Below are positions 4,729 through 53,571 of a stretch of 64,000 bases of DNA, one piece after another (the stretch's first letter is position 1; each line of letters begins with the position of its first letter). The DNA is from Temperatibacter marinus (lineage in GTDB: Bacteria; Pseudomonadota; Alphaproteobacteria; Sphingomonadales; Kordiimonadaceae): NCBI RefSeq assembly GCF_031598375.1, contig NZ_CP123872.1, forward strand, positions 620,001 to 684,000. Reading direction: 5' to 3'. The notes beneath the pieces were generated by a model. That model was not told the origin of the DNA and did not search any database. It saw only the letters and a program-made list of their open reading frames with translations. Made by a program: the position numbers and the translations under genes.

Positions 4729-6539
4729 TGTTTTCTAAACTTAAAAGCTATCGCCTACTTTTTGTCATGGGTATTATCATGCTTGTGTCATGGAATATTA
4801 TCGCTGATCGACTGCTTGGTCCTTATCAAATTGACCTTACTGAAGACAGGCTTTACACCCTCGCTAAGGGCTCAGATAGGCTCTTGCGTGACTTAGAAGG
4901 GGAAGTCACTATTGAATTCTTCTTTTCTAAAAAACTGGCGGCTCCCTATGCTGACCTTCTTTCTTATGGTAAGCGCATAGAAAATATGCTGCGGACGTTT
5001 AAGGCTTGCAATCCAGACAAAGTCACCGTCATTTTCCGAGACCCAGACCCTTTTTCAGAAGCCGAGGATAAGGCTGTTGCTCATGGCATTCAGGGCATCC
5101 CAATGCAGAGCAGTGAAAATCTATACATGGGCATTCGAATAACCAACGATGTAGACGGGGAAAAAATCCTGCCTTTCCTTTCTTCTGACCGAGAGAAATT
5201 CCTTGAATATGACTTGATCAAAGCAGTGACAAGCCTCGATGCTGTCGATGACAAGCCTCAGGTTGCCCTCCTCACGACATTGCCAATGCAATTTGGGGCT
5301 GGCGGGCCGCAGATGGCCATGCAAGGTCGGTCACAACCCTATGTCATTTATACCCAGATGCGAGAGGCGTTTAGACTTGTTGACCTCAATAAAGATTTTA
5401 AAACTCTTCCCGAAGACTTAGATATCTTGATGTTGGTTCAACCGCCTCAACTTACGTCCGAGCAAGAGGCTCTTATTCATGACTATATTCAAAAAGGGGG
5501 CAAAACCTTAATATTTGCCGACCCGCATGCTGAAGCTGTCAATCCAAGAGCCACAACACCGACTGCGGCCTCTCTCAAAACACTACTACTGCCCTACGGC
5601 CTTCAAATCCAAGACAAAAAAATCATTGGAGACCTTGGCCTTGCTCAAAAGGTGTCAATGGGTGGTTATGGCCCTGATAACATCAAAGATTACCTTTTTT
5701 GGCTCAATGTGACCGATGCTCATTTGGATAAGCAAGATATTGTTACCAGCAGTATTGACAACATAGCGCTTGCTTCATCTGGGGCCCTAGAACTTCTCCC
5801 TGAAAGAACTACGGACATTACTCCCCTTATCTGGTCAAGTGAAAATGCCATGCTTTATGACAGTTCTAAAGCAGTCGGCATGCCAGATCCAGACAGCCTA
5901 TTAAGGGAATTATCACCAAGCGATGAATCTTATGTCATAGCCGCTCGGATCAGCAATAAATCTGAAGACTCTGAATCAGCGCTGCAACTCTTCGTCATGG
6001 CCGATAGTGATCTCTTTGATGACCGTTTTTGGGTGCAAGTACAAAACCTTATGGGACAACAAATCATTGTTCCTTCTGCCGGTAATGGTAGTTTCATTAT
6101 AGGCCTGCTTGACCATATGACAGGCAATGACGCCCTCTTAAGCTTAAGAGCACGAGGCATCTCTCAAAGGCCTTTCTCTAAAGTTGATGAAATTCGCCGA
6201 AAAGCAGAGGCGCGCTATCAACAACAAGAACAACTTCTTGAAGCGAAAATGCAAGAAACCGAAGCTCGTATACAACAGCTGGAAGCCATAAAACCTAAAG
6301 CTGGATCCTTGGTGATGAACGATGCGCAGCAACAAGAGCTTGCTCAATTTAAAACAGAGCTTTTGGAAATTCGTAAAGAGCTTAGAACTGTGAAGCGCAA
6401 TCTAAGGCGGGAAATAGAAACCTTGAAATTTTGGCTTATGGGTATAAATATTTTCCTCATCCCTTTCCTTTTAGCTGGGATTGGACTAATAGTCCTCATG
6501 CGCCGCAGAGGACAATCTAATCGACGCGGCCGCGCATAG
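4728..6539 (+). CDS. GldG-like ABC transporter auxiliary membrane protein
   Basis: A 603-residue protein with one membrane segment near the N terminus (LLFVMGIIMLVSWNIIADRLLG), a large periplasmic part and a second membrane segment close to the C terminus (FWLMGINIFLIPFLLAGIGLIVLM). The order DLTEDRLYTLAKGSDRLL, then VTIEFFFSKKL, then a DPDPFSEAED region matches GldG (DUF7088 plus ABC-type uncharacterised transport domain). A charged, coiled-coil-like helix (about residues 495-560) lies before the last membrane segment. It is translationally coupled to the permease. The family works as a partner of ABC-2 permeases, but its exact role is unsettled. Confidence 0.85.
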   Translation: MFSKLKSYRLLFVMGIIMLVSWNIIADRLLGPYQIDLTEDRLYTLAKGSDRLLRDLEGEVTIEFFFSKKLAAPYADLLSYGKRIENMLRTFKACNPDKVTVIFRDPDPFSEAEDKAVAHGIQGIPMQSSENLYMGIRITNDVDGEKILPFLSSDREKFLEYDLIKAVTSLDAVDDKPQVALLTTLPMQFGAGGPQMAMQGRSQPYVIYTQMREAFRLVDLNKDFKTLPEDLDILMLVQPPQLTSEQEALIHDYIQKGGKTLIFADPHAEAVNPRATTPTAASLKTLLLPYGLQIQDKKIIGDLGLAQKVSMGGYGPDNIKDYLFWLNVTDAHLDKQDIVTSSIDNIALASSGALELLPERTTDITPLIWSSENAMLYDSSKAVGMPDPDSLLRELSPSDESYVIAARISNKSEDSESALQLFVMADSDLFDDRFWVQVQNLMGQQIIVPSAGNGSFIIGLLDHMTGNDALLSLRARGISQRPFSKVDEIRRKAEARYQQQEQLLEAKMQETEARIQQLEAIKPKAGSLVMNDAQQQELAQFKTELLEIRKELRTVKRNLRREIETLKFWLMGINIFLIPFLLAGIGLIVLMRRRGQSNRRGRA

Positions 6540-42392: not shown

Positions 42393-44042
42393 TCATTGCA
42401 TTTTTTCCTCAGGGCATGACCACCCTAAGATATCCGCAACCATTGCTCTATCTTCATGGTTTTCACAATTCTTATAAAGATAATGTCTCAAATCCTGAAC
42501 TGCTTGACCCTCAATATCTTCAGGGCTTAGATTGAGATACTCCGTGCCTTCAGGACTATAAAAAAATGCTGGAGACCTTAATCTTCCATCTTCATGATAA
42601 AAAAGTGCCGCTGCCAAAGAATAGATATGTTGCTTATCGTAGTTGATCAATGATCGATCATTCATAAAGCTCTTTTGGGCTGAGATAACCTTCTTTAAAT
42701 CATCACGACATTCTATTACGTAATGACTATCTAAATAGTCAGCATACAGAGCTAAAGCAGAACAAATAATTGGAATATTCAAATGGATGCATTCTAATCC
42801 TATGGTCCCCCAGCGCGTGACGACAGAAATAGAATACTCTTTAGCTAATTCTTGCATACGGCTCTCACAAGAGGAGATAATGATATTCTTATAGTTTTGA
42901 TAAAGATATTGAAAGAGTTGCCGTTGAAGAAGGCAGTCTTTGTCATGTACTGCATGCTTTATACCTTTAGCATTGGGATGAAATCGGACTGCAATAATAG
43001 CATCTGGATGTTCTACTGAAATTGCTTGTACAATTGATTGATAATAATCAAACATATGGATAAAATCATCAATACCATACACAGTGGCTTCATCCGCAAA
43101 TGAATGCAGAGCTAACACATAAATTTGATCCTCCTTACTCAGTTGCCTTTGCCCCAAAGTTCCCAAAAAGCGCCCCTCTTTATCAAGACTTTTCAACTGG
43201 ATCAATCCCGTTAACTCTTCATATTTTGCTTCTTTATGCGCCGTATGTTTCGGATCAATACGCATATAATTTAATTGATTATAGTCTTTAGTAACCAGCT
43301 CAAGCTTTTGATATGCAGCCTTTGCATGAGTATCCCATATAGAACTGTGATGATTTTTTTTCATGGCTGTAAAGCGACGCGAATGGTGAATTCTGGTAGA
43401 TTTATTATAATTGAGTTCAGCCCCCCTATAGATTGGGTTGTACATATATTTGTATAATGTCAAAGAGGGGACTTTAGCCTGAATAAAAATATTCTTCAGA
43501 GTTGCATGTTCATAACAGTCATGACCATTAAAATAAAAGTGAGGAAAAATATATTTTATAACATCCGTGACAAAATCTACCAACGCCTTATGATAGCAAA
43601 TAACGCTTGCTAAGGTTTTTATTACCTCATGGGAAACAGGCATTTCGAATGCATTCTCATAGCGCCTTAGGACTTGTTCCCACGCATGAAGGCCGACAGG
43701 CAGATTGTTATAGGAATAATTGATTAGGTTTTTGATATTATTTGAGTCTATTGCTTTTTTTTGCATCGTTCTAAATGAGTTCGAACTGCAATATGAATAC
43801 CCTATGCGAAAGGTACGACTAGATTTTTGATGTCCTTCATACTTAGAAATTGTGAAGAAACTATCGACTTTATTTCCTTCATTTTTAAAATGACATCGAA
43901 CGAAGAAAAAGTCATTCAAGGTCGTCTTAGTGTTCAAGAAAAGCCTGTCAAATCGTTCTTCATTGTAAAGAACAACTTTTTTATCTTTTAAAAAGACCGC
44001 CAATTCTTCAAGTGTTGAATAGTCAATCACTGATCTAACCAT
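42393..44042 (-). CDS. Capsule/surface polysaccharide biosynthesis-like protein (GT-B type)
   Basis: A 549-residue protein. The C-terminal half contains IIAVRFHPNAKGIKHAVHDK, IIISSCESRMQELAKEYSISVVTRWGTIGLECIHLNIPIIC, which resembles the acceptor/donor region of capsule polysaccharide (KpsS/LipB-like) and related GT-B proteins that add sugars or Kdo. The N-terminal half is not recognised. Its start overlaps the aminotransferase end by 16 bases, making it the third gene of a minus-strand operon (SDR, aminotransferase, this). Confidence 0.55.
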   Translation of the reverse strand: MVRSVIDYSTLEELAVFLKDKKVVLYNEERFDRLFLNTKTTLNDFFFVRCHFKNEGNKVDSFFTISKYEGHQKSSRTFRIGYSYCSSNSFRTMQKKAIDSNNIKNLINYSYNNLPVGLHAWEQVLRRYENAFEMPVSHEVIKTLASVICYHKALVDFVTDVIKYIFPHFYFNGHDCYEHATLKNIFIQAKVPSLTLYKYMYNPIYRGAELNYNKSTRIHHSRRFTAMKKNHHSSIWDTHAKAAYQKLELVTKDYNQLNYMRIDPKHTAHKEAKYEELTGLIQLKSLDKEGRFLGTLGQRQLSKEDQIYVLALHSFADEATVYGIDDFIHMFDYYQSIVQAISVEHPDAIIAVRFHPNAKGIKHAVHDKDCLLQRQLFQYLYQNYKNIIISSCESRMQELAKEYSISVVTRWGTIGLECIHLNIPIICSALALYADYLDSHYVIECRDDLKKVISAQKSFMNDRSLINYDKQHIYSLAAALFYHEDGRLRSPAFFYSPEGTEYLNLSPEDIEGQAVQDLRHYLYKNCENHEDRAMVADILGWSCPEEKMQ

Positions 44043-45151
44043 TTTTTAATTGTATCAACAATATATTCTATGTGCTCTTTATCTAAGCTTGGATGCAAAG
44101 GTAAAGTTAACGCTGTCTTATTGTATTCTAAAGCATTGCTAAAATCATTGCCAAACCGACATTTTTTTTGATCCTTATAAACTGTAAGCTCGCTCAACAA
44201 AGGATAATGGTAATAAGCCCCAACTCCTTCATTATTAAGCCATACGAGCAAGTCATCTCTATTTTTTTTGACTGTAATAATACAAAGATTAAAGGCCGAG
44301 CTTTGCGGATGAGGAATTAAATTTATGTTTGGAATTCCATCTAATAAACCTGCATATGTCTCCCATAGCATCTGACGCTTTGAAACAAACTCATCAAGAC
44401 GTTTAAGTTGACAAATACCAAGAGATGCAGCAAGACCATTTAAATGATAATTACTGGCAATTTCGGTACAATCATACATTGCCTTTCCAATTCCATTATT
44501 TGCATTCCGAATAACACCATTACTTCTGATTTTGGCCAGTTTTTGAGCAAGGTTTTTATCCCTAGTCGTTATCATACCTCCCTCACCCGTCGTCATATTT
44601 TTCGCAGGATGGAAACTAAAACTTGCAGCGATAGAAAGCGGGCTAGATCCAATTTTTGTACCATCCTCATAATGACCTCCAACAGCATGTGCTGCGTCTT
44701 CAATGAGATGAAGCCCATATCTCTGACATAGTTGATGATAAGCCTCCATATCAATGGAAATCCCTGCAAAATGAACAGGAATAATAGCTTTTGTTCGAGG
44801 GGTGATACAGGTTTCAACCTCATGAATACATAAGTTGGGCAGATGGGAGCTTATGTCACAAAGTACAGGCACTGCACCCGTTAGATTGACTGCGGAGGCC
44901 GTAGAAACCCACGTGACATTCGGTACGATAACTTCATCTCCATCGCCAATCCCTAAAGCTCTTAAAATGATTTCTAAGCTTGCACTTCCGTTGACACAGG
45001 AGATTGAATGCGAGCATCCAATATATTTTGTGAATGCATCTTCAAACTGATCTAGTATGGGACCTCTTGCTAGCCATCCATCTTTTAGTAACTCAAAAAC
45101 TGCTTCAATTTCCTCATCATCTATGAAATGTTGAGCATAATTTATATTCAT
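44027..45151 (-). CDS. DegT/DnrJ/EryC1-family sugar aminotransferase
   Basis: A 374-residue PLP enzyme. CVNGSASLEIILRALGIGDGDEVIVPNVTWVSTA is the PLP-phosphate region, LIEDAAHAVGGHY holds the ring-binding aspartate, and K184 in SFHPAKNMTTGEGG forms the internal aldimine. Family members (PseC, LegC, ArnB, SpsC) aminate 4-keto sugar nucleotides. It overlaps the SDR gene by 4 bases (ATGA), so the two likely act in sequence: dehydratase or oxidase, then amination. The product amine could be the target of the formyltransferase domain encoded at 48178-49638. Confidence 0.9.
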   Translation of the reverse strand: MNINYAQHFIDDEEIEAVFELLKDGWLARGPILDQFEDAFTKYIGCSHSISCVNGSASLEIILRALGIGDGDEVIVPNVTWVSTASAVNLTGAVPVLCDISSHLPNLCIHEVETCITPRTKAIIPVHFAGISIDMEAYHQLCQRYGLHLIEDAAHAVGGHYEDGTKIGSSPLSIAASFSFHPAKNMTTGEGGMITTRDKNLAQKLAKIRSNGVIRNANNGIGKAMYDCTEIASNYHLNGLAASLGICQLKRLDEFVSKRQMLWETYAGLLDGIPNINLIPHPQSSAFNLCIITVKKNRDDLLVWLNNEGVGAYYHYPLLSELTVYKDQKKCRFGNDFSNALEYNKTALTLPLHPSLDKEHIEYIVDTIKKWLDQ

Positions 45152-46107
45152 GAATTATTTCCAAAAGTGTTATTGTATTCGATCATTTTTGATATACCCT
45201 CTTGCAGTGAAACTGTAGGAGACCAATTAATTGCTTTGGAAATCTTATCAATACTCGGGACCCGACGATCAAGGTCTTGATAGCTTGGACCATAAGCAGC
45301 ACGGTCTACATGAGTAATTGGGTAATTCTCTTGATTTAGCTGTTCGCTCACCACCTGTGCTAGCTGCTTGACAGAATATTCTTCTTTGGGGTTGCCTATA
45401 TTATAAAATGAGCCGTGAGAGGACTTAGTTTCAATAAGGGAAATAATCCCATTCACAAGATCAGAAACATAGGTAAAGCATCTCTGCTGAGCCCCCTCAC
45501 CGTGTATAACAATAGGCTTGCCGGATTGGACTTGGTCTATAAATTTTGAAACGACCCGGCCCTTTAAGCGCGGCCCGTAGCAATTAAAAATCCTTATACC
45601 GACAAATTCAAGAAGTTGCTCTTGGTGAAGCGCATTGATATAGTGCTCTACCATTGCCTTAGCGCTTGAATAGCACCATCTATTAATGTCCGTTGACCCT
45701 AGAATTCGATCACTATCTTCTCTAAAGGGTTGGACTGTGTTTTTACCGTAAATTTCTGATGTTGAAGAGAAAAAGAATAGTTTATTTGTCGCAGTTACTT
45801 CTTCTAAAATAGCTAAAGAAGCTTTTAAATTCACCTCAATTGTTTTTCTTGGCAATTGAACATATTGCTGCGGCTCTGCTATGGCGGCTAAATGGATGAC
45901 AGCATCAGCACTCCTTACAAGCTGCGTAACGAGAGGCTTATTCAGAATAGTATCAATCACTAGTCTGTAGGTCTCCCAATCTCTAAAATGCGTACACCTT
46001 TTTTCTTCAAAAAGATCTAGACATGTAACCTCATTGCCTCTTTTGAGAAGTTCTTCAGCCAGATGAGAACCAAGAAAGCCCATACCACCTGTAATCAAAT
46101 ATTTCAT
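45148..46107 (-). CDS. NAD-dependent sugar-nucleotide SDR (epimerase/dehydratase/decarboxylase family)
   Basis: About 319 residues from MKYLITGGMGFLGSHLAEEL (Rossmann GxxGxxG). ATG 46107 follows AGAGG; a longer frame to 46161 exists. The active site is FFSSTSEIYG and YSSAK. The C-terminal GPSYQDLDRRVPSIDKISKAINWSP resembles the UDP-glucuronate decarboxylase half of ArnA as well as 4,6-dehydratases, so the reaction cannot be fixed. It probably prepares the 4-keto sugar for the overlapping aminotransferase. Confidence 0.8.
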   Translation of the reverse strand: MKYLITGGMGFLGSHLAEELLKRGNEVTCLDLFEEKRCTHFRDWETYRLVIDTILNKPLVTQLVRSADAVIHLAAIAEPQQYVQLPRKTIEVNLKASLAILEEVTATNKLFFFSSTSEIYGKNTVQPFREDSDRILGSTDINRWCYSSAKAMVEHYINALHQEQLLEFVGIRIFNCYGPRLKGRVVSKFIDQVQSGKPIVIHGEGAQQRCFTYVSDLVNGIISLIETKSSHGSFYNIGNPKEEYSVKQLAQVVSEQLNQENYPITHVDRAAYGPSYQDLDRRVPSIDKISKAINWSPTVSLQEGISKMIEYNNTFGNNS

Positions 46108-46352
46108 CTCTAAACCTCTTGTTGAATACTGATGAACCATCAGCTTAATAATTACGTTCAAAATATATATATATTTTCATGATTGGCTAGAAAATAGATG
46201 AATTCTATTGTTAATAGTAAGTTTTTTATAGCTTTTTTCAGTGCTATCATACTTTGATATAGTCTGGACAGGATATGGTTTCGTTGTTAAGTTTTTATCC
46301 AAATCAATAATAGTCAGTCCTTTCTGACACGAACAGAAAGATATTTTTACAA

Positions 46353-47153
46353 ATGAAAACGTTACTCATTGCTGAAATAGGAATAAATCATAATGGATCA
46401 TTTGATATGGGCCGGCGTATCATTGATTCTGCCTATGACTGCGGCGTACAAGCGGTTAAATTCCAAACCTATCGTCCTGAACTCAGATTTAACTCCGACA
46501 ATCCATTCATTGAGACCTTTGAAAAATATCACCTTCCCTTCGACCAGGAATTGAACTTGTGGCGTCATGCTCAAGATAAAGGTTTAAAAGTGATGACGAC
46601 ACCTTTTGACCTGCCTTCTGTTGAAGATTGTCGATCAGAACATTTAAACGGTGTAAAAATTGCCTCCTTCGAAACCACAAATCTTGAGTTGGTTCGCGGG
46701 GTTGCTAGTTTACAACTGCCAACCTACTTTTCTACAGGTCAAAATACACTCAATGAAGTGAAAACTGTGATCGCAACAATACAGTCCTATCATAACGATA
46801 TTATACCAATGCACTGTATTTCGTCCTACCCTATGGCAAATAAAGATGCGAATTTAGCCGTCATCAAAAAACTACAAACAGAACTCAAAAGAGACATTGG
46901 CTATTCAGATCATTCAGTAGGCTATAAAGTGAGCGGTCTAGCTGTCGCGATGGGAGCAACCTGTATTGAAAAGCACTTCACTATTGATAATAGCTTAGAG
47001 GGACCTGATCACTCTTTCTCCATGAACCCAGACAGCATGAGGGAATTAGTAGATCATATTACTCTAACAGAAGAAATTATTGGGGACCATTGGATGGGCG
47101 TACGCCACTGTGAACAACAAATTCATGATATTGCTCGACGCGTTTCTATTTAG
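46353..47153 (+). CDS. NeuB/SpsE-type nonulosonic acid synthase lacking the SAF domain
   Basis: A 266-residue TIM-barrel enzyme. IAEIGINHNGSFDMGRRIIDSAYDCGVQAVKFQTYRPE, the MTTPFD segment, MHCISSYPM, GYSDHSVGYKV and EKHFTIDNSLEGPDHSFSM match sialic/pseudaminic/legionaminic acid synthases, which condense PEP with a 2,4-diamino or N-acetyl hexose. Family members are usually about 335-350 residues, with a C-terminal SAF (antifreeze-like) domain that covers the active site of the partner chain. This protein stops at IARRVSI, exactly where that domain would begin, and the next gene starts 13 bases later. It heads a plus-strand operon. Confidence 0.88.
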   Translation: MKTLLIAEIGINHNGSFDMGRRIIDSAYDCGVQAVKFQTYRPELRFNSDNPFIETFEKYHLPFDQELNLWRHAQDKGLKVMTTPFDLPSVEDCRSEHLNGVKIASFETTNLELVRGVASLQLPTYFSTGQNTLNEVKTVIATIQSYHNDIIPMHCISSYPMANKDANLAVIKKLQTELKRDIGYSDHSVGYKVSGLAVAMGATCIEKHFTIDNSLEGPDHSFSMNPDSMRELVDHITLTEEIIGDHWMGVRHCEQQIHDIARRVSI

Positions 47154-47165
47154 AATAGTTGATTT

Positions 47166-48185
47166 ATGACTTCTCCTTATCTAACAGCCAACATTATTGT
47201 CCGCGGATCTATTGCCGAAGGGTGGGGGCATGTGATGCGGGGTGTTACTATTCGTGATTTTCTGAACCATAGGAATATAAAAAATCGCCTCATATTAAGG
47301 TTAGATACTCCCCTAGCTCAAGCCTTTAGGGCAATTGATCAAGGTCCTTTTATAATAGAGGATAGTGACAAGAATAATGATGACATTCCATCATGCGATC
47401 TCTGTTTCTTAGATCAATATACATATACATCAGTTGAAATTGAGAAACTTCAAAAAAAATCCATGCAACTTATAGTTTTTGATGAGCTTGCAAAAATAAA
47501 CTTTACAGAACTATTTAGAACCCAGGATCGAATTGTGAGAGCTCAGCTCCTCAAACAACCCAGACACTCAGATAAAGGAAAGTGCAAAATCTACAGTGGC
47601 CTTCCATATTTTGTTATCAAAAGAGACTACCCTGATGATATCGTTCATCCTCCCGAGAAGCTATGGGATGTATTGATCGTCCTTGGAGGCGGAGCTGGAC
47701 ATGAAACCATCTATGAAAATTTAGCTAAACAATTCAAAAAGACAGACCCTAAAGGCAACCTAAGAATTAGTATAGTTTTAGGCGCCAATTCTACGCCCAC
47801 TTTCAGTAACATGATTTCAAAGATTATCCCTAATGCAACTATTCATGGCTATGTGGGCGATTTAATTTCATTAATGAGACAATCAACTGTAGCAATTATG
47901 AGTGGGGGCTATTCTAAATATGAAGCCGCCTATGTAGGTTTACCCAGTATTGTATTTGCTGTTCAAGATCATCAAGTAGAAATTGCGAAAGAATTTTGTA
48001 GTGCTGGAGGGGGTATTTATGCTGGAGAATGGCATAACCCAGACTCTATAGAAAAGGCTGTAACCCTAGTTGAGCAACTCTTAAGGTCACGGCAAGAGTT
48101 GGAGAGAATTTCTACTGCCGCGAAAAAACTTATAGATGGAAATGGATTAGATAGAATTTTAGATAAAAGTTTAAATCATGACTAA
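47166..48185 (+). CDS. PseG/SpsG-like UDP-sugar hydrolase
   Basis: A 339-residue GT-B fold protein. IIVRGSIAEGWGHVMRGVTI matches the PseG opening, with the catalytic-type histidine H22 in GHVMR. WDVLIVLGGGAGHETIYENLAK and VAIMSGGYSKYEAAYVGLPSIVFAVQDHQ match the nucleotide-binding half. PseG and SpsG remove UDP from a diacyl-amino trideoxyhexose before condensation by the synthase encoded just upstream. It overlaps the next gene by 8 bases. Confidence 0.82.
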   Translation: MTSPYLTANIIVRGSIAEGWGHVMRGVTIRDFLNHRNIKNRLILRLDTPLAQAFRAIDQGPFIIEDSDKNNDDIPSCDLCFLDQYTYTSVEIEKLQKKSMQLIVFDELAKINFTELFRTQDRIVRAQLLKQPRHSDKGKCKIYSGLPYFVIKRDYPDDIVHPPEKLWDVLIVLGGGAGHETIYENLAKQFKKTDPKGNLRISIVLGANSTPTFSNMISKIIPNATIHGYVGDLISLMRQSTVAIMSGGYSKYEAAYVGLPSIVFAVQDHQVEIAKEFCSAGGGIYAGEWHNPDSIEKAVTLVEQLLRSRQELERISTAAKKLIDGNGLDRILDKSLNHD

Positions 48186-49638
48186 CGGAAAGACGATACT
48201 AATCATTCAGTGTAGGGTGCGATCTACTCGTTTACCTGGAAAAGCGCTTATGCCTTTTCTAGGGAATATGACCATGCTCGATTTCTTACTTACGCGCCTA
48301 TCAAAACTTGCAAATGTCCAAGAAGTTGTTCTAACGACGGGGAAAGACCCAGCAAATGACCCTATAGAAAAAATTTCTAATAATCATACCATCCAATGCT
48401 TCCGCGGCGATGAAGAGGATGTTTTGTCTAGATTTCTAAAGGCCGCAATTGCCACAGACGCTGAGACTATTGTAAGAGTTTGTGCTGATAATCCTCTTAC
48501 AGACCCGAGGCTCATTGATGAGCTCATTACTTTTTATCATTCTAGGAATGATATTGACCATCTGGCCACCTTTGATCAACCATCCCTGCCTTACGGCGTT
48601 GGATGCGCTATCTTCTCACTAGAAGCTCTTAAATTAACGGATAAATCTTGCGGTTTGAACGACCCCTCCCGAGAGCATATTGAGCCATTTATGTTACAGT
48701 CGATGGCCATAAAAACATTTCATTACATAGCAAAAACTCAATGCCACTTTCCCGCCCTAAGAGTAACTGTAGACGAAAAAAGAGATTTCGACTTTGTACA
48801 GCCCCTCGCAGACGCTTTAGTCCGGCGATTTGGCTTAGATTTTATCACAGAAGAGTTAGTCAATTTAGTTTCAGCCCCTAAAATTGCTTTATTTGCTAAT
48901 GGTACTTTAGGTCTAAAAGGGGCCCAGTTTTTAAAATCAATCCAGGCAAATATTGCTGTTCTGGTTTTACATCCAAAATCAACTGCTACTGATAGAGAAG
49001 AAATAATTGAAACACTAAATTTATCGCCTAGCTCAGTTATAGATTATTCGGAAATTAAAGAGAAAGGCATAGAGTTTTTTGAAGATAACGGTTGCGATAT
49101 CGCTCTCTCTCTTTGGTCATCCTATATTTTTAAATCAGATCTGATTAAAAAATTTCCCTTGGGGGTCTATAATTTGCATAATTCTCTTCTACCCGCTCTT
49201 GGAGGCTCAGGCGCAAATATTTGGACGTTCCTGTTAAATTTGAAAGAAAGTGGTGCATCTTTGCACAGAGTAACAGCTCAAATTGATCAAGGTCCCATCA
49301 TTGATCAACGTGCTTTTCCAGTCTTAAAGGATGATACGGGAGGGTCATTGTATGACAAACAACAGGCCATGATGCTTGCCCTCCTGAAAGAGAACTGGAA
49401 AGATTTATGTATAGGTAATTACAGCTATAAAATTTCTACTGAAGAAGTATCCTACTTTAAAAAGTCAGAGAGAGATGAACAGAAATGCATAGACTTAGCT
49501 CAAAATCTTTCAGTAAATGAAATTTTGAATATCATTAGAGGGTATCAGTTCAATGATACAGATTCTGCTTATTTTGTAGATGAGAATGGTCAAAAGTGGA
49601 ATGTACGTCTTGCCATAACACCACGTGAAGAAAAGTAA
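48178..49638 (+). CDS. Fusion: SpsF-type CMP-sugar cytidylyltransferase plus N-formyltransferase
   Basis: A 486-residue two-domain protein. Residues 1-235 are an SpsF/KdsB-like cytidylyltransferase (IIQCRVRSTRLPGKALMPF; CADNPLTDPRLIDE; LRVTVDEKRDFDFV), which would activate the nonulosonate with CTP. Residues 237-410 are a formyl-tetrahydrofolate-dependent formyltransferase: N332 and H334 in NLHNSLLPALGGSG and D370 in AQIDQGPIIDQ, with H to D spacing of 36 as in ArnA (H104-D140). The C-terminal 70 residues resemble the formyltransferase C-terminal subdomain. The operon otherwise has no acetyltransferase of the PseH/SpsD type, so the formyl domain may take its place. Confidence 0.85.
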   Translation: MTNGKTILIIQCRVRSTRLPGKALMPFLGNMTMLDFLLTRLSKLANVQEVVLTTGKDPANDPIEKISNNHTIQCFRGDEEDVLSRFLKAAIATDAETIVRVCADNPLTDPRLIDELITFYHSRNDIDHLATFDQPSLPYGVGCAIFSLEALKLTDKSCGLNDPSREHIEPFMLQSMAIKTFHYIAKTQCHFPALRVTVDEKRDFDFVQPLADALVRRFGLDFITEELVNLVSAPKIALFANGTLGLKGAQFLKSIQANIAVLVLHPKSTATDREEIIETLNLSPSSVIDYSEIKEKGIEFFEDNGCDIALSLWSSYIFKSDLIKKFPLGVYNLHNSLLPALGGSGANIWTFLLNLKESGASLHRVTAQIDQGPIIDQRAFPVLKDDTGGSLYDKQQAMMLALLKENWKDLCIGNYSYKISTEEVSYFKKSERDEQKCIDLAQNLSVNEILNIIRGYQFNDTDSAYFVDENGQKWNVRLAITPREEK

Positions 49639-49648
49639 GAGAAAAATT

Positions 49649-50365
49649 ATGTTTCCTTCAAATTTCATAAAAATTCTCTCTGATTACAAAAAAGCATTCA
49701 TTCGTGATTCAAAAGAAAAAAATCATCTTTACAACAATAACTATTCACAAAGAATGGGAGATTTTTCTCAAAAATCTCTATGGAAAGAAGAAGCAAGCAA
49801 AGCTTTTGAGGACATCCAAATTTCTTCAAATTTCAGGGCGCTGGACATTGGCTGTAATGATGGTAGTGGTACCGAAATACTGTCGTCTCTGCTAGATGTT
49901 TCTTTTGAGGGCATAGATATTTCCACGGCTGCTATCGATTCTGCTCATAAAAACTTTCCAAACAAAAAGGATAAATTTCAGACCTATGACGGCGAAAACA
50001 TACCTTTTTTAGAGAATAGTTTTGATGTCATATGCTGCATGCATGTCATTGGCCATGTCAAAAACGTCAAAACATTCCTTTCCGAAATCAGGAGAGTCAT
50101 GAAGCCAAATGGAACAGTTGTGATCATTACACCCAACGCTCAATATAAAATATTTTCGATCGTCGATAGCTTGATGAATAATTACAATCCCGATCCAACT
50201 GTCAGAAATTATTTTTTCCCTAAAGACTTTAAAGACATCGCTCAGTCCGCCGGGTTCAATAGTGTCTCGACTCAACGATTTGGAGAGAAACCCCTCCTTC
50301 TTTCTTGGCTACCATCAGAGTCTGACTATGGACGGATCAGAGTTATCCTCACAGCTACGAAATAA
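49649..50365 (+). CDS. Class I SAM-dependent methyltransferase
   Basis: About 238 residues. FRALDIGCNDGSGTEILSS is SAM motif I, FEGIDISTAAIDSA motif II, and NSFDVICCMHVIGHV, IRRVMKPNGTVVIITPN complete a methyltransferase-11 type fold. ATG 49649 is chosen 10 bases after the fusion-gene stop; a GTG at 49625 inside that gene is possible. It is the last gene of the nonulosonate operon and may methylate the sugar or glycan. GHV in place of the common L/F residues near the active site gives no specificity clue. Confidence 0.8.
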   Translation: MFPSNFIKILSDYKKAFIRDSKEKNHLYNNNYSQRMGDFSQKSLWKEEASKAFEDIQISSNFRALDIGCNDGSGTEILSSLLDVSFEGIDISTAAIDSAHKNFPNKKDKFQTYDGENIPFLENSFDVICCMHVIGHVKNVKTFLSEIRRVMKPNGTVVIITPNAQYKIFSIVDSLMNNYNPDPTVRNYFFPKDFKDIAQSAGFNSVSTQRFGEKPLLLSWLPSESDYGRIRVILTATK

Positions 50366-50507
50366 TTCTCTGGAAACTCATCCAATCCGTTGAAGCTCTG
50401 TCAAAGTCATATCTAGAGGAAGATGCATTTGGCATTATTTTTGAATAAAAACTTCTCTAGACCATTGAAATAAAATAGAGTTATTAAAAGACACTTTGGG
50501 GATTCTC

Positions 50508-52787
50508 ATGACATCGATTGATTATTATGTATTTTATCATAATGAAGAAAAAAAGGAGGAGGCTCTTTATGGTCAATCATGTCCTGAAATAGATTTCATT
50601 AATCTAAACGAACTCCCCTTACCTAAAGAGTTTAAAATCCGTGGTCTCGACACCATTGTAAATAAAGCAATATTTTCAGAATATCTAGGCCTGCTCTCTA
50701 TAGAGCCTCAAGCTGACTTTATATTCTGCGCAACCTATTCTATTCCCATAAAATTCTCTGCCAAATGGCGTCAAGAAAGCGACACGAAGATTTTTCTGCC
50801 TGCTGTCCGTTTTGAAGATATTACCTCTTTAGACATTGATCCTGCTTGCATCTATAGTGTTGAAGTTGGTAATATAACGCTTATAGAGTCAGAGGAAATG
50901 CTTGATATCATCAATCAATTTAGCATGTCTGAAAAGATACCTCGTGGCCCATTCAAAGGCACTTTTATCGTGCCAAAAGCTATTTTCTTCGAGTTACAAA
51001 ACTGGTTGAAGGAAGTCACTCTCTATTTGCTCAAGACTTACCCTCTTGAAAGTCTTAAATCACAATCTAGTAAGTTCGATGAAAGCTCTATCGCAAACCG
51101 ATCTAACCAGCAAAAAGAAATTGATGCACTCAGACATAAATATGGATTCCTCTTAGAGCGGGCCGTTGCATATTTTTTAGGCGCCTATTCAGAAAATAAT
51201 TCTATCCCTATCAAGTTGCTAGGAGAGGAAATCATAAAACAGAAAGGGAAAATGGATCTGCTTACTAAAATTGACCGCTTTGCTATCAATAACACGATAG
51301 CTCTTTCCTTTGGTGATAGTAATTATGCTGATGTATCAGAAAAATGGATACAAACTGTAATCAATTCCGGTGTGAAAAATTACATTTTTATCGCTTTAGA
51401 TGCTGAGCTATACGAATCCTTCATTCACAAAGGTTATAATGTTGCTCTTCATCCCTTTTCAGGGGGCCTGGGTGACCTCTGGGTATTCCGTCTGGAAACA
51501 ATACAAATAATATTAGAAGCAGGCTTTAACACACTTCATTCAGATGCTGATGCATTCTGGGTTAAAAACCCTATGTCGCTCATAGATGATTTGGAATTTG
51601 ACATCATCGCTTCGCAAGGAACGATTTTCCCAAGGGATGTACTAGCAGATTGGGGCCATGTAATCTGTTGTGGGTTTTTATATTTTAAAGCTTCCCTTAA
51701 AACACTCTGTTTTTTCCAAGACCTTTTACCACTTTCTAGAAAAGTTAAAGACGATCAAATTGCTGTTAATAGACTGCTACGAGAGATGTCAACCTCTTGG
51801 GACAGACAGAATAACAGCAACTACTCATTATCCATTAAAGACACAATTTTTGATTGTTATCACAACCCTTTAAAGGGCGAGACTAAATGCGGCCTTAAAG
51901 TTAAGCTTATACCTCACAAACAGGTACAAAGGTTATATGAAGAAAGACGAGAAGAAGCCTATGTTTATCATTTGCTCTCAGAAAAAAATGAGCAGTCAAA
52001 AATAGAAGTGTTTGAGCAAATAGAAAACCAGCTCCAATCTAGTCCCAATAAACAAATCAATTATGACTCTAATGTTATCTGGCTTGCTTCTTTCCCAAGG
52101 TCTGGAAACACTTTGATGCGCACAATCTTTAAGCATAATTTTGGCTTAGATAATTACTCATTGTACAATGATCGCCTTGATATTGGTAAGTATGAGAGTC
52201 TTAGAGAGTTTGTAGGACATAAAGACGGGGAATGGGAGTGCATTAACGAGGAATATTATCAATATCCAAAATATCCAGAGGCCATGGAAAATTTACCCTC
52301 TTCTCATCCTACAATTATCAAAACACACTCTCAATTTGGGCCCTTCTATACACATGCTAAAGTTATTTATGTTGTGAGAGATCCTAGAGCAGCTATTAGC
52401 TCAGCTGTTTCTTATAGAAAACAATTTACGCACCCCCATAAATCTAGAGATGAGCTACTAGAAGAATTCTTAAAGAGGGGAGACCTTCAATCTGGTCATT
52501 GGGATGATCATTATACGAGCTGGATAGAAAATTCAAAAAATATTCTAATCATAAAATTTGAAGACATTTTGGAAGAGTTTGATCAAGTCCTTGCAAGAAT
52601 TAGTGAATTCATAGAGATTTCCCCTAAAAGGATGACTCTCACAGACTTCAACCAGTATAAAAAAGTCAATCCACATTTCTTTAGAAAAGGAAAAAAGAAC
52701 AGTTGGCAGGAAACATTCACAAAAGACCAAATTTCTAAAATAAATAAAAAAAGCGAAAAAGTAATGAAAAAACTCGGCTATTCATAA
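50508..52787 (+). CDS. Fusion: GT77-like glycosyltransferase domain plus sulfotransferase domain
   Basis: A 759-residue protein. The first 230 residues are not recognised. Residues about 255-480 match nucleotide-diphospho-sugar transferases (GT77/DUF271 type): PFSGGLGDLWVFRLETIQIILEAGFNTLHSDADAFW, with the metal-binding DAD near 346-348, and GFLYFKASLKT. Residues about 520-759 are a sulfotransferase: ASFPRSGNTLMR (PAPS 5'-loop, about 527-538), IIKTHSQFG, and VVRDPRAAISSAVSY (3'-phosphate loop, about 622-636). It could add and then sulfate a sugar. The upstream TTG at 50496 is rejected as start in favour of ATG 50508. Confidence 0.8.
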   Translation: MTSIDYYVFYHNEEKKEEALYGQSCPEIDFINLNELPLPKEFKIRGLDTIVNKAIFSEYLGLLSIEPQADFIFCATYSIPIKFSAKWRQESDTKIFLPAVRFEDITSLDIDPACIYSVEVGNITLIESEEMLDIINQFSMSEKIPRGPFKGTFIVPKAIFFELQNWLKEVTLYLLKTYPLESLKSQSSKFDESSIANRSNQQKEIDALRHKYGFLLERAVAYFLGAYSENNSIPIKLLGEEIIKQKGKMDLLTKIDRFAINNTIALSFGDSNYADVSEKWIQTVINSGVKNYIFIALDAELYESFIHKGYNVALHPFSGGLGDLWVFRLETIQIILEAGFNTLHSDADAFWVKNPMSLIDDLEFDIIASQGTIFPRDVLADWGHVICCGFLYFKASLKTLCFFQDLLPLSRKVKDDQIAVNRLLREMSTSWDRQNNSNYSLSIKDTIFDCYHNPLKGETKCGLKVKLIPHKQVQRLYEERREEAYVYHLLSEKNEQSKIEVFEQIENQLQSSPNKQINYDSNVIWLASFPRSGNTLMRTIFKHNFGLDNYSLYNDRLDIGKYESLREFVGHKDGEWECINEEYYQYPKYPEAMENLPSSHPTIIKTHSQFGPFYTHAKVIYVVRDPRAAISSAVSYRKQFTHPHKSRDELLEEFLKRGDLQSGHWDDHYTSWIENSKNILIIKFEDILEEFDQVLARISEFIEISPKRMTLTDFNQYKKVNPHFFRKGKKNSWQETFTKDQISKINKKSEKVMKKLGYS

Positions 52788-52839: not shown

Positions 52840-53571
52840 ATGAAAATAAGTATAGAAACAATTTTCCCACATGGATCACCGAAAGATCATTACGATTTTG
52901 TTTTTCATTGGTCTAAAAAGCTAAAAATCATCTATCTAGCGTTACCTAAAGTCGCAAGCTCCTCAATCATTCGTTTTCTTCAATTAAATGAAACCAATGG
53001 GGATGGAAGTGTTTTTAATTTTAAACCCCATGATAAAATTAATTCCCCCTTACTTTCCCCGAGCGATAACTTTGACGGTTTTAAAAGTTTAGTTGCTGAT
53101 CCAGATTGCTTTCTTTTTACCTTTGTAAGAAACCCTTACGATAGAGTTCTATCTGGGTACCTAGAAAAAATTGCTAAAGCTTCTAATCGCCATGACCCTC
53201 GAGTTCTAAAGCTTGGTCTTGATGGTGTTGATATACCATCCTTTCACGATTTTCTGCTGGCTTTAGAAAAACAAGGATTTCCTACCATGGATAGACATTG
53301 GAAACCACAACACTTAATCGCGCGACCTCAAGCTATTCGATATGATCTTATAGGAAAGTTAGAAAGTTATGAAAATGATATGGCCACACTTTTAAAAAGA
53401 ACAGGGTTAACACAATTCATAAGTGCTGAAAAGGAAGGGGTAGAGCATGCAACTTCAGCTCGAACATTGAAAGAAAAATATTATGGTGCAAAAGAGATCG
53501 CTTTAGTGAATAAGCTATATGAGCAAGATTTTAAACTCTTTGATTATTCCATGCTCACTGAATCATTTTGA
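52840..53571 (+). CDS. Sulfotransferase family 2 (carbohydrate sulfotransferase-like)
   Basis: A 243-residue protein with IIYLALPKVASSSIIRFLQ (PAPS 5'-loop of the PKxASSS type) and FLFTFVRNPYDRVLSGYLEKI (3'-phosphate loop RNPYDRVLSGY), which are the hallmarks of heparan/chondroitin-type sulfotransferase family 2. RHWKPQHLI and YDLIGKLESYENDM follow as usual. It probably moves sulfate from PAPS to a sugar hydroxyl of the island's polysaccharide. AGGTAAG precedes the start. Confidence 0.88.
   Translation: MKISIETIFPHGSPKDHYDFVFHWSKKLKIIYLALPKVASSSIIRFLQLNETNGDGSVFNFKPHDKINSPLLSPSDNFDGFKSLVADPDCFLFTFVRNPYDRVLSGYLEKIAKASNRHDPRVLKLGLDGVDIPSFHDFLLALEKQGFPTMDRHWKPQHLIARPQAIRYDLIGKLESYENDMATLLKRTGLTQFISAEKEGVEHATSARTLKEKYYGAKEIALVNKLYEQDFKLFDYSMLTESF

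Follow-up and report, generated by a model that had tools for sequence, protein, structure and literature searches.

In this study, we found that a single gene of Temperatibacter marinus joins an SpsF-type cytidylyltransferase to a sugar N-formyltransferase (FMT). The gene lies in a stretch of 64,000 nucleotides (NZ_CP123872.1, 620,001 to 684,000, forward strand), referred to here as the window, and all coordinates are positions in it. At 48178-49638 on the plus strand there is a single stop-free reading frame of 486 aa, and the reality of the fusion is confirmed. We propose, with a probability of about 0.6, that its product is a bifunctional enzyme of a nonulosonate operon, in which the FMT half would formylate the 4-amine of a nucleotide-linked sugar and the SpsF half would make a CMP-N-formyl-nonulosonate. 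The parts of the gene are the following:

48178..48873, plus strand: SpsF-type cytidylyltransferase half, residues 1-232, with the RxxSTRLPGK motif (PF02348, 6oew, Foldseek)
48874..49635, plus strand: sugar N-formyltransferase half, residues 233-486, comprising Formyl_trans_N and N_formyltrans_C (PF00551, PF18216, Foldseek)
49171..49287, plus strand: codons of the catalytic triad N332 (49171-49173), H334 (49177-49179) and D370 (49285-49287) (alignment to ArnA)

The original prediction, made from the sequence, had described one frame holding an SpsF-type cytidylyltransferase and a complete formyltransferase, and the open frame and its Pfam matches bear this out. CTP_transf_3 (PF02348) matched fusion residues 7-207 with 77.9 bits (cut-off 22.6), Formyl_trans_N (PF00551) residues 314-396 with 51.3 bits (cut-off 26.1), and the dimerisation domain N_formyltrans_C (PF18216) residues 437-481 with 34.1 bits (cut-off 25.8). 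The RxxSTRLPGK motif was common to all six aligned rows, i.e., the fusion and five SpsF homologues, and the nearest solved chain of the first half was the cytidylyltransferase 6oew (E 2.5e-26). For the second half, the nearest solved chains were sugar N-formyltransferases, including PseJ (6ci2; phmmer E 5.6e-11, residues 304-432). Its N332, H334 and D370 aligned with N102, H104 and D140 of Escherichia coli K-12 ArnA, the K-12 sequence itself having been checked, and the spacing was identical, just as predicted; we found neither a displaced triad nor a better match to another family. In the NCBIfam profile search no equivalog cut-off was reached by the fusion: the FMT half scored best with PRK07579 (dTDP-4-amino-4,6-dideoxyglucose formyltransferase; 69.5 of 238 bits) and fmt (68.3 of 201.5), and lower with ArnA (PRK08125; 62.4 of 777) and PurN (42.3 of 150.1). 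An assignment of this half to Fmt, PurN, PurU or ArnA was rejected, since the equivalog cut-off of none of them was attained.

A structure model of the fusion, which the original prediction had called for, gave a mean predicted local distance difference test (pLDDT) of 76.4 and a predicted template modelling score (pTM) of 0.51. The model was confident in both cores, with ten-residue blocks of residues 1-130 at 84-98 and those of residues 231-420 at 80-92 apart from one block at 67, and its Foldseek matches were 6oew (3.4e-17) and the sugar N-formyltransferases Rv3404c (4.2e-14), ArnA and WbkC. The alignment behind the model was imperfect, as 33 to 70 residues were placed on the first half in ten FMT rows, and because it was poor around the junction, the low model confidence there is uninformative about the linker.

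It is extremely improbable that an assembly or sequencing artefact joined two genes. In favour of an artefact, the fusion was present in this genome alone among those searched; however, the genome is a single contig of 3.18 Mb and the junction is seamless, making a sequencing error unlikely. Both other frames at the junction are full of stops, and no in-frame start codon is left in 48790-48960. A C-terminal tail of about 15-20 residues, present in four of the five aligned SpsF homologues, is missing from the fusion and from the shortest homologue (L020; L-numbers denote fetched comparison loci), and where this tail would stand, the FMT already begins with its first strand. A frameshift joining two ordinary genes would probably leave the SpsF tail and an intervening stretch. 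From the closed frames, the lack of a start remnant and the absent tail, we therefore judge that a frameshift or assembly join can be rejected; the original prediction had named such a join as one event that would undo it, and nothing at the junction suggests one.

With the whole fusion as query, 5 of 147 genomes of relatives matched at 1e-30, its own included and the other four along the first half only, while 2 of 398 genomes of the phylum matched at 1e-35, again its own and one along the first half only (the two samples overlap). Neither the 72,556 plasmid records (140 matched) nor the 50,697 phage records (14 matched) contained a place covering 80% of the query, and no frame of at least 80 aa matched both halves in the 240 loci fetched by SpsF or NeuB (80 genome, 160 viral). 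The single-protein fusion query found no relative in the genome-contig scan or in viral contigs, and a two-row alignment likewise found none in viral contigs; the SpsF-alignment scan of genome contigs covered the best 80 of 479 relatives. The full fusion was thus not found elsewhere, a negative that falls short of proof and is bounded by the patterns and thresholds used. A literature search at title and abstract level, with most subscription journals outside its reach, turned up no named SpsF-formyltransferase fusion, in keeping with the original statement that none was known to have been described. Other SpsF fusions do occur, with a class-III aminotransferase (L215 8986-11025 and L128 4998-7013) and, as mentioned in the accessible part of PMC7371886, with an aldo-keto reductase; like the present gene they join SpsF to another enzyme in nonulosonate clusters, but the partner differs.

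The same genes exist unfused elsewhere. Our survey comprised 320 loci (80 fetched by NeuB, 160 by SpsF and 80 by FMT), of which 28 had NeuB and FMT within 6 kb. The closest FMTs to the fusion half were separate genes in L208 (34% identity) and L274 (28%), located in operons of the order aminotransferase-SpsF-SpsG-FMT-...-NeuB; L217 and L276 carried the same gene set with FMTs 24-25% identical to the fusion half, and in all four the FMT stood directly behind SpsG. In L274, PseB (489.9 bits, above the cut-off of 407.75) and PseC (468.9, above 423.5) lay in front. On the viral contig L308 an SpsF frame (5096-5854) overlapped an FMT frame (5848-6522) in the same order as in the fusion, and this contig also held a PseB-type gene (PF02719), an aminotransferase, a second FMT, an HD protein, a PIG-L deacetylase and NeuB. 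Of the 80 genome loci obtained with SpsF, 60 carried NeuB. A tree of 25 FMTs placed L208 and L274 nearest to the fusion half, followed by L038 and L308. The position of the nearest separate relatives inside operons with SpsF, SpsG and NeuB fits an N-formyl nonulosonate. Among seven further FMT loci, five had a DegT aminotransferase (L037-L041; absent in L023 and L409), two of them together with an ArnA-type NAD-dependent sugar-nucleotide enzyme (SDR), as it should be if nucleotide-linked amino sugars are the substrates of most relatives.

The island around the fusion contains these genes:

46353..47153, plus strand: NeuB-type synthase, 266 aa, no SAF domain (PF03102 219 bits, cut-off 22.1; nearest solved chain 6ncs, 290 aa)
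47166..48185, plus strand: PseG/SpsG-like nucleotide-sugar hydrolase (TIGR03590 75.1 bits, below the cut-off of 153.55; PF04101 29.5, above the cut-off of 22)
49625..50365, plus strand: class I methyltransferase sharing 14 bases with the end of the fusion, role unassigned (PF13489, PF08241)
45148..46161, minus strand: UXS/ArnA-type SDR of a divergent operon, likely ATG start at 46107 (4lk3, ArnA, tree)
44027..45151, minus strand: DegT-type sugar aminotransferase, PseC-leaning (TIGR03588, ArnB model, tree)
42393..44042, minus strand: 549-aa protein overlapping the end of the aminotransferase gene (no Pfam, NCBIfam or PDB match)

The NeuB-type gene is followed, after a gap of 12 bases, by the PseG/SpsG-like gene, which overlaps the fusion by 8 bases, so that the predicted operon of the fusion with a NeuB-type synthase (46353-47153) and such a hydrolase (47166-48185) is present. 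With the TIGR03590 (PseG) cut-off unmet, the hydrolase is PseG-like only, and against the PDB this SpsG-like protein gave no match at 0.001. In the 266-aa NeuB-type protein Pfam shows the NeuB domain only, the matches stopping at profile positions 277-278 of 327-329; it has no SAF domain, which contacts the N-acetyl group of the usual NeuB substrate, and is also short by roughly 10-14 residues in one loop. NeuB-matching frames of up to 300 aa, some of them partial, occurred in 44 other loci (e.g., the viral L153, L162 and L126 and the genome locus L283). The closest NeuB domains in 349 genomes of the phylum (39%; L042 and L043) come last in proteins of some 800 aa, after an oxidoreductase-like part, and these proteins have, as judged by eye, a SAF-like end. 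The G+C content of the measured cluster genes was 36-42%, vs. 48-49% in two genes at 40.0-40.7 and 59.7-60.4 kb; such low G+C is common in surface-sugar islands. For the 549-aa protein a glycosyltransferase would be a guess. Further downstream, 50496-52787 encodes a 763-aa protein with a nucleotide-diphospho-sugar transferase domain and a sulfotransferase domain, and another sulfotransferase follows at 52840-53571.

Taking the fusion together with its neighbours, we infer what the two halves do, what they act on and in which order the steps run, as follows. The aminotransferase would make the 4-amine on a nucleotide-linked sugar, and the C-terminal half of the fusion would formylate it using formyl-tetrahydrofolate, the step that in standard pathways belongs to the acetyltransferase PseH/SpsD. 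The PseG/SpsG-like hydrolase would free the formylated sugar, the NeuB-type synthase would condense it with phosphoenolpyruvate, and the N-terminal half of the fusion would activate the product with CTP to CMP-N-formyl-nonulosonate. With a hexosamine as substrate, this product would probably be the 7-N-formyl form. In general, the substrates of sugar N-formyltransferases are amino sugars linked to a nucleotide, and CMP-ulosonate synthetases work at the pathway end. Since the two halves would act two steps apart, a scaffold, a complex or a fixed enzyme ratio is likelier than direct channelling of the product.

The original prediction had seen no PseH/SpsD acetyltransferase in the island. Across the genome, the best PseH score was 29.8 bits, short of the cut-off of 93.1, but the weight of this is small: among 14 control genomes just 1 attained the cut-off, and in a related Synechococcus cluster the PseH-like gene (47.6 bits) likewise stays below it. 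The FMT sits in a pathway operon without PseH, and the split relatives L208, L217, L274 and L276 have no acetyltransferase nearby. Of the loci with NeuB and FMT, an acetyltransferase was near in 4 of 17 with a type-1 FMT and in 7 of the remaining 11 (Fisher p 0.053; 0.043 after merging L149 with L150, whose FMTs are identical, and L338 with L360, identical at 174 of 193). The FMT types were named after the data had been inspected, and the choice of loci partly builds in the co-occurrence. Given that 55 of 147 NeuB loci without FMT have an acetyltransferase, the type-1 rate is not far from background, and the replacement of the acetyltransferase by the FMT across loci is only a trend.

A second type of FMT, with C-x-H replacing N-x-H, was seen in some of these clusters. 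At L208 2875-4461, one 528-aa frame holds two different FMTs in tandem, one of each type. Type-2 FMTs accompany a PIG-L-type deacetylase in the nonulosonate clusters of L012 (11845-13226), L208, L274 (4994-6372), L229, L242, L247, L256 and L308, which suggests that the other amine is first deacetylated and then formylated.

The SDR and the aminotransferase bear on which amino sugar is formylated. The best solved chains for the SDR were UDP-glucuronate decarboxylase 4lk3 (E 4.1e-49) and ArnA (4.6e-40), and in the tree it lay on the side of both, grouping with ArnA with support of 92/94, the deeper fork having only 70/57. A grouping with LegB was rejected: placement with two rows over the LegB cut-off gave an approximately unbiased test value (p-AU) of 0.0004, and the LegB model scored 121.7 of 475 bits. 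Of five plasmid relatives fetched, four (L025, L026, L027 and L289) adjoin a nucleotide-sugar dehydrogenase, and the fifth (L290) does not. The aminotransferase scored 316.5 of 423.5 bits with the PseC model TIGR03588 and 259.1 of 631 with the ArnB model; its two best PDB matches were ArnB-type, and in the best tree it grouped with PseC with weak support (63/70). An earlier test of the PseC side (p-AU 0.072) omitted the PseC-side member L308, with which the best tree has the aminotransferase on that side. By sequence the enzyme leans towards PseC, ArnB being also possible. One gene of the genome exceeds the UDP-sugar dehydrogenase cut-off.

Elsewhere in the genome, at about 1.85 Mb, there is a second nonulosonate locus. 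It contains the genome's only strong PF02719 (PseB) match (332 bits, at G000:C1:1853567, outside the window; the next match has 55.5), genes above the PseC (432.3 vs. 423.5 bits) and PseI (426.9 vs. 340.25) cut-offs, a second SpsF and a short PseG-like frame seen by eye only. Its PseI is joined to a carbamoyl-phosphate-synthase-like (ATP-grasp) region (L019 8108-10144; G000:C1), a candidate alternative acylating enzyme. This locus, with its PseB-, PseC- and PseI-type genes, the SAF-less NeuB and the UXS/ArnA-like dehydratase are points beyond the original prediction. The CMP-N-formyl-nonulosonate that it had named as the likely product is partly supported, in that both halves are of the named kinds and the nearest separate FMTs lie in nonulosonate operons.

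Several observations weigh against a bifunctional nonulosonate enzyme. Neither PseB nor LegB is present in the island, the dehydratase there is of the UDP-glucuronate-decarboxylase/ArnA type, placement of the aminotransferase with ArnB was not rejected (p-AU 0.375), and the second locus could supply or use intermediates. FMT-like genes were present in just 14 of the 60 genome loci with NeuB, and NeuB in just 5 of 80 viral loci fetched by FMT; the 4 type-1 loci with an acetyltransferase nearby show that the two are not exclusive. In the FMT tree, the 13-row fork holding the fusion half had support of 93/95, slightly below the program's mark, and combined nine FMTs of nonulosonate loci with three rows from other loci (L038, L039 and L409), and the fusion branch was long (1.67). 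In the structure model, the FMT dimerisation region (421-486) was at low confidence (41-59).

As a rival reading, the FMT half may serve a different sugar, e.g., a UDP-4-amino-pentose or some other amino sugar that the divergent operon makes for the same surface glycan, and be fused merely for joint expression. This is unlikely: the SDR, aminotransferase and 549-aa protein do form their own divergent gene run, and the DegT aminotransferases of the further FMT loci, two with an ArnA-type SDR, agree with it, but nonulosonate operons house the two nearest FMTs, and another FMT overlaps SpsF. Alternatively, the pathway may start from a pentose. The SDR would then decarboxylate UDP-glucuronate (or UDP-GlcNAc-uronate) to a UDP-4-keto-pentose, from which the aminotransferase would make a UDP-4-amino-pentose; the FMT half would formylate this as ArnA does, the SpsG-like enzyme would free it, the SAF-less NeuB would condense it with phosphoenolpyruvate, and SpsF would activate an eight-carbon 7-formamido-3,7-dideoxy-oct-2-ulosonic acid. 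The affinities of the SDR and the rejection of LegB, the dehydrogenases beside four of its five plasmid relatives, the ArnB-type PDB matches of the aminotransferase, the one UDP-sugar dehydrogenase gene and the lack of the domain that contacts the N-acetyl group all speak for this route. We nevertheless hold it to be rather unlikely, as the split FMT operon relatives L274 and L308 carry PseB-type genes, i.e., a hexosamine route, the aminotransferase scores higher with PseC than with ArnB and joins PseC in the best tree, L290 lacks the dehydrogenase, and none of the 44 loci with short NeuB frames (some partial, with short flanks) has an SDR match above 105 bits. We also know of no eight-carbon 7-formamido ulosonic acid of this kind. 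In its most novel form, this reading would have the island couple amino-pentose chemistry of the ArnA/ArnB type to nonulosonate synthesis and make N-formylated ulosonic acids with eight carbons, a new class; we regard it as distinctly unlikely.

Action of the FMT half late in the pathway, on the free or CMP-linked ulosonate, would make the fusion a coupling of consecutive steps and would account for the FMT being fused to the last enzyme. It is highly unlikely, because, by the titles of 5vyq, 4yfy and 5vyu, several of the Foldseek-matched sugar N-formyltransferases have been crystallised with amino sugars in nucleotide-linked form, and the FMT stands directly behind SpsG in the four split operons. 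To our knowledge, few of the enzymes that formylate N-formyl nonulosonates have been assigned. One gene for the formylating and CMP-activating steps, together with its unfused counterparts, would offer a direct means of recognising which pathways in bacteria and phages make N-formyl nonulosonates, and the island poses a test of the ability of NeuB-type synthases to take pentose-derived substrates.

Both N-formyl nonulosonates and formyltransferase genes next to the pathways for them are already in the literature, whereas none of the other genomes searched showed the two enzymes joined. According to the accessible parts of the sources, Pseudoalteromonas distincta has a 7-formamido nonulosonate (PMC3210612), and Halorubrum sp. 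PV6 has 5-N-formyl-legionaminic acid with a candidate formyltransferase gene in a CMP-nonulosonate cluster; unlike here, that gene is separate, the enzymes are NeuA/NeuC-type and the organism is an archaeon (PMC6137143). Geobacillus type III flagellin glycosylation islands have orthologues of PseC, PseF, PseG and PseI, no PseH and a formyltransferase gene, fmt2; the available part of that paper leaves the formylation target open and does not mention a fusion (PMC5109656). The legionaminic acid (sps) pathway of Bacillus subtilis resembles the island in its aminotransferase, NeuB-type enzyme, SpsG, SpsF and UDP-linked precursors, but differs in having SpsD and the dehydratase SpsM and in its product, Leg5Ac7Ac, formylation not being described in the part of the source consulted (PMC7439481). 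PseJ (PDB 6ci2, 6ci4) is, like the second half of the fusion, a folate-type formyltransferase and is linked to the Pse pathway by name, but its solved chains of 192 and 217 aa are too short to include a cytidylyltransferase. The partner in ArnA is, by annotation, a UDP-glucuronate dehydrogenase, and PRK08125 gave just 62.4 of 777 bits here; nevertheless, the N-terminal domain of E. coli K-12 ArnA shares the triad and its spacing with the fusion and is also one half of a two-enzyme fusion. The fused partner of ArnA works at a non-adjacent step, its domains being likewise separated by a step, that of ArnB.

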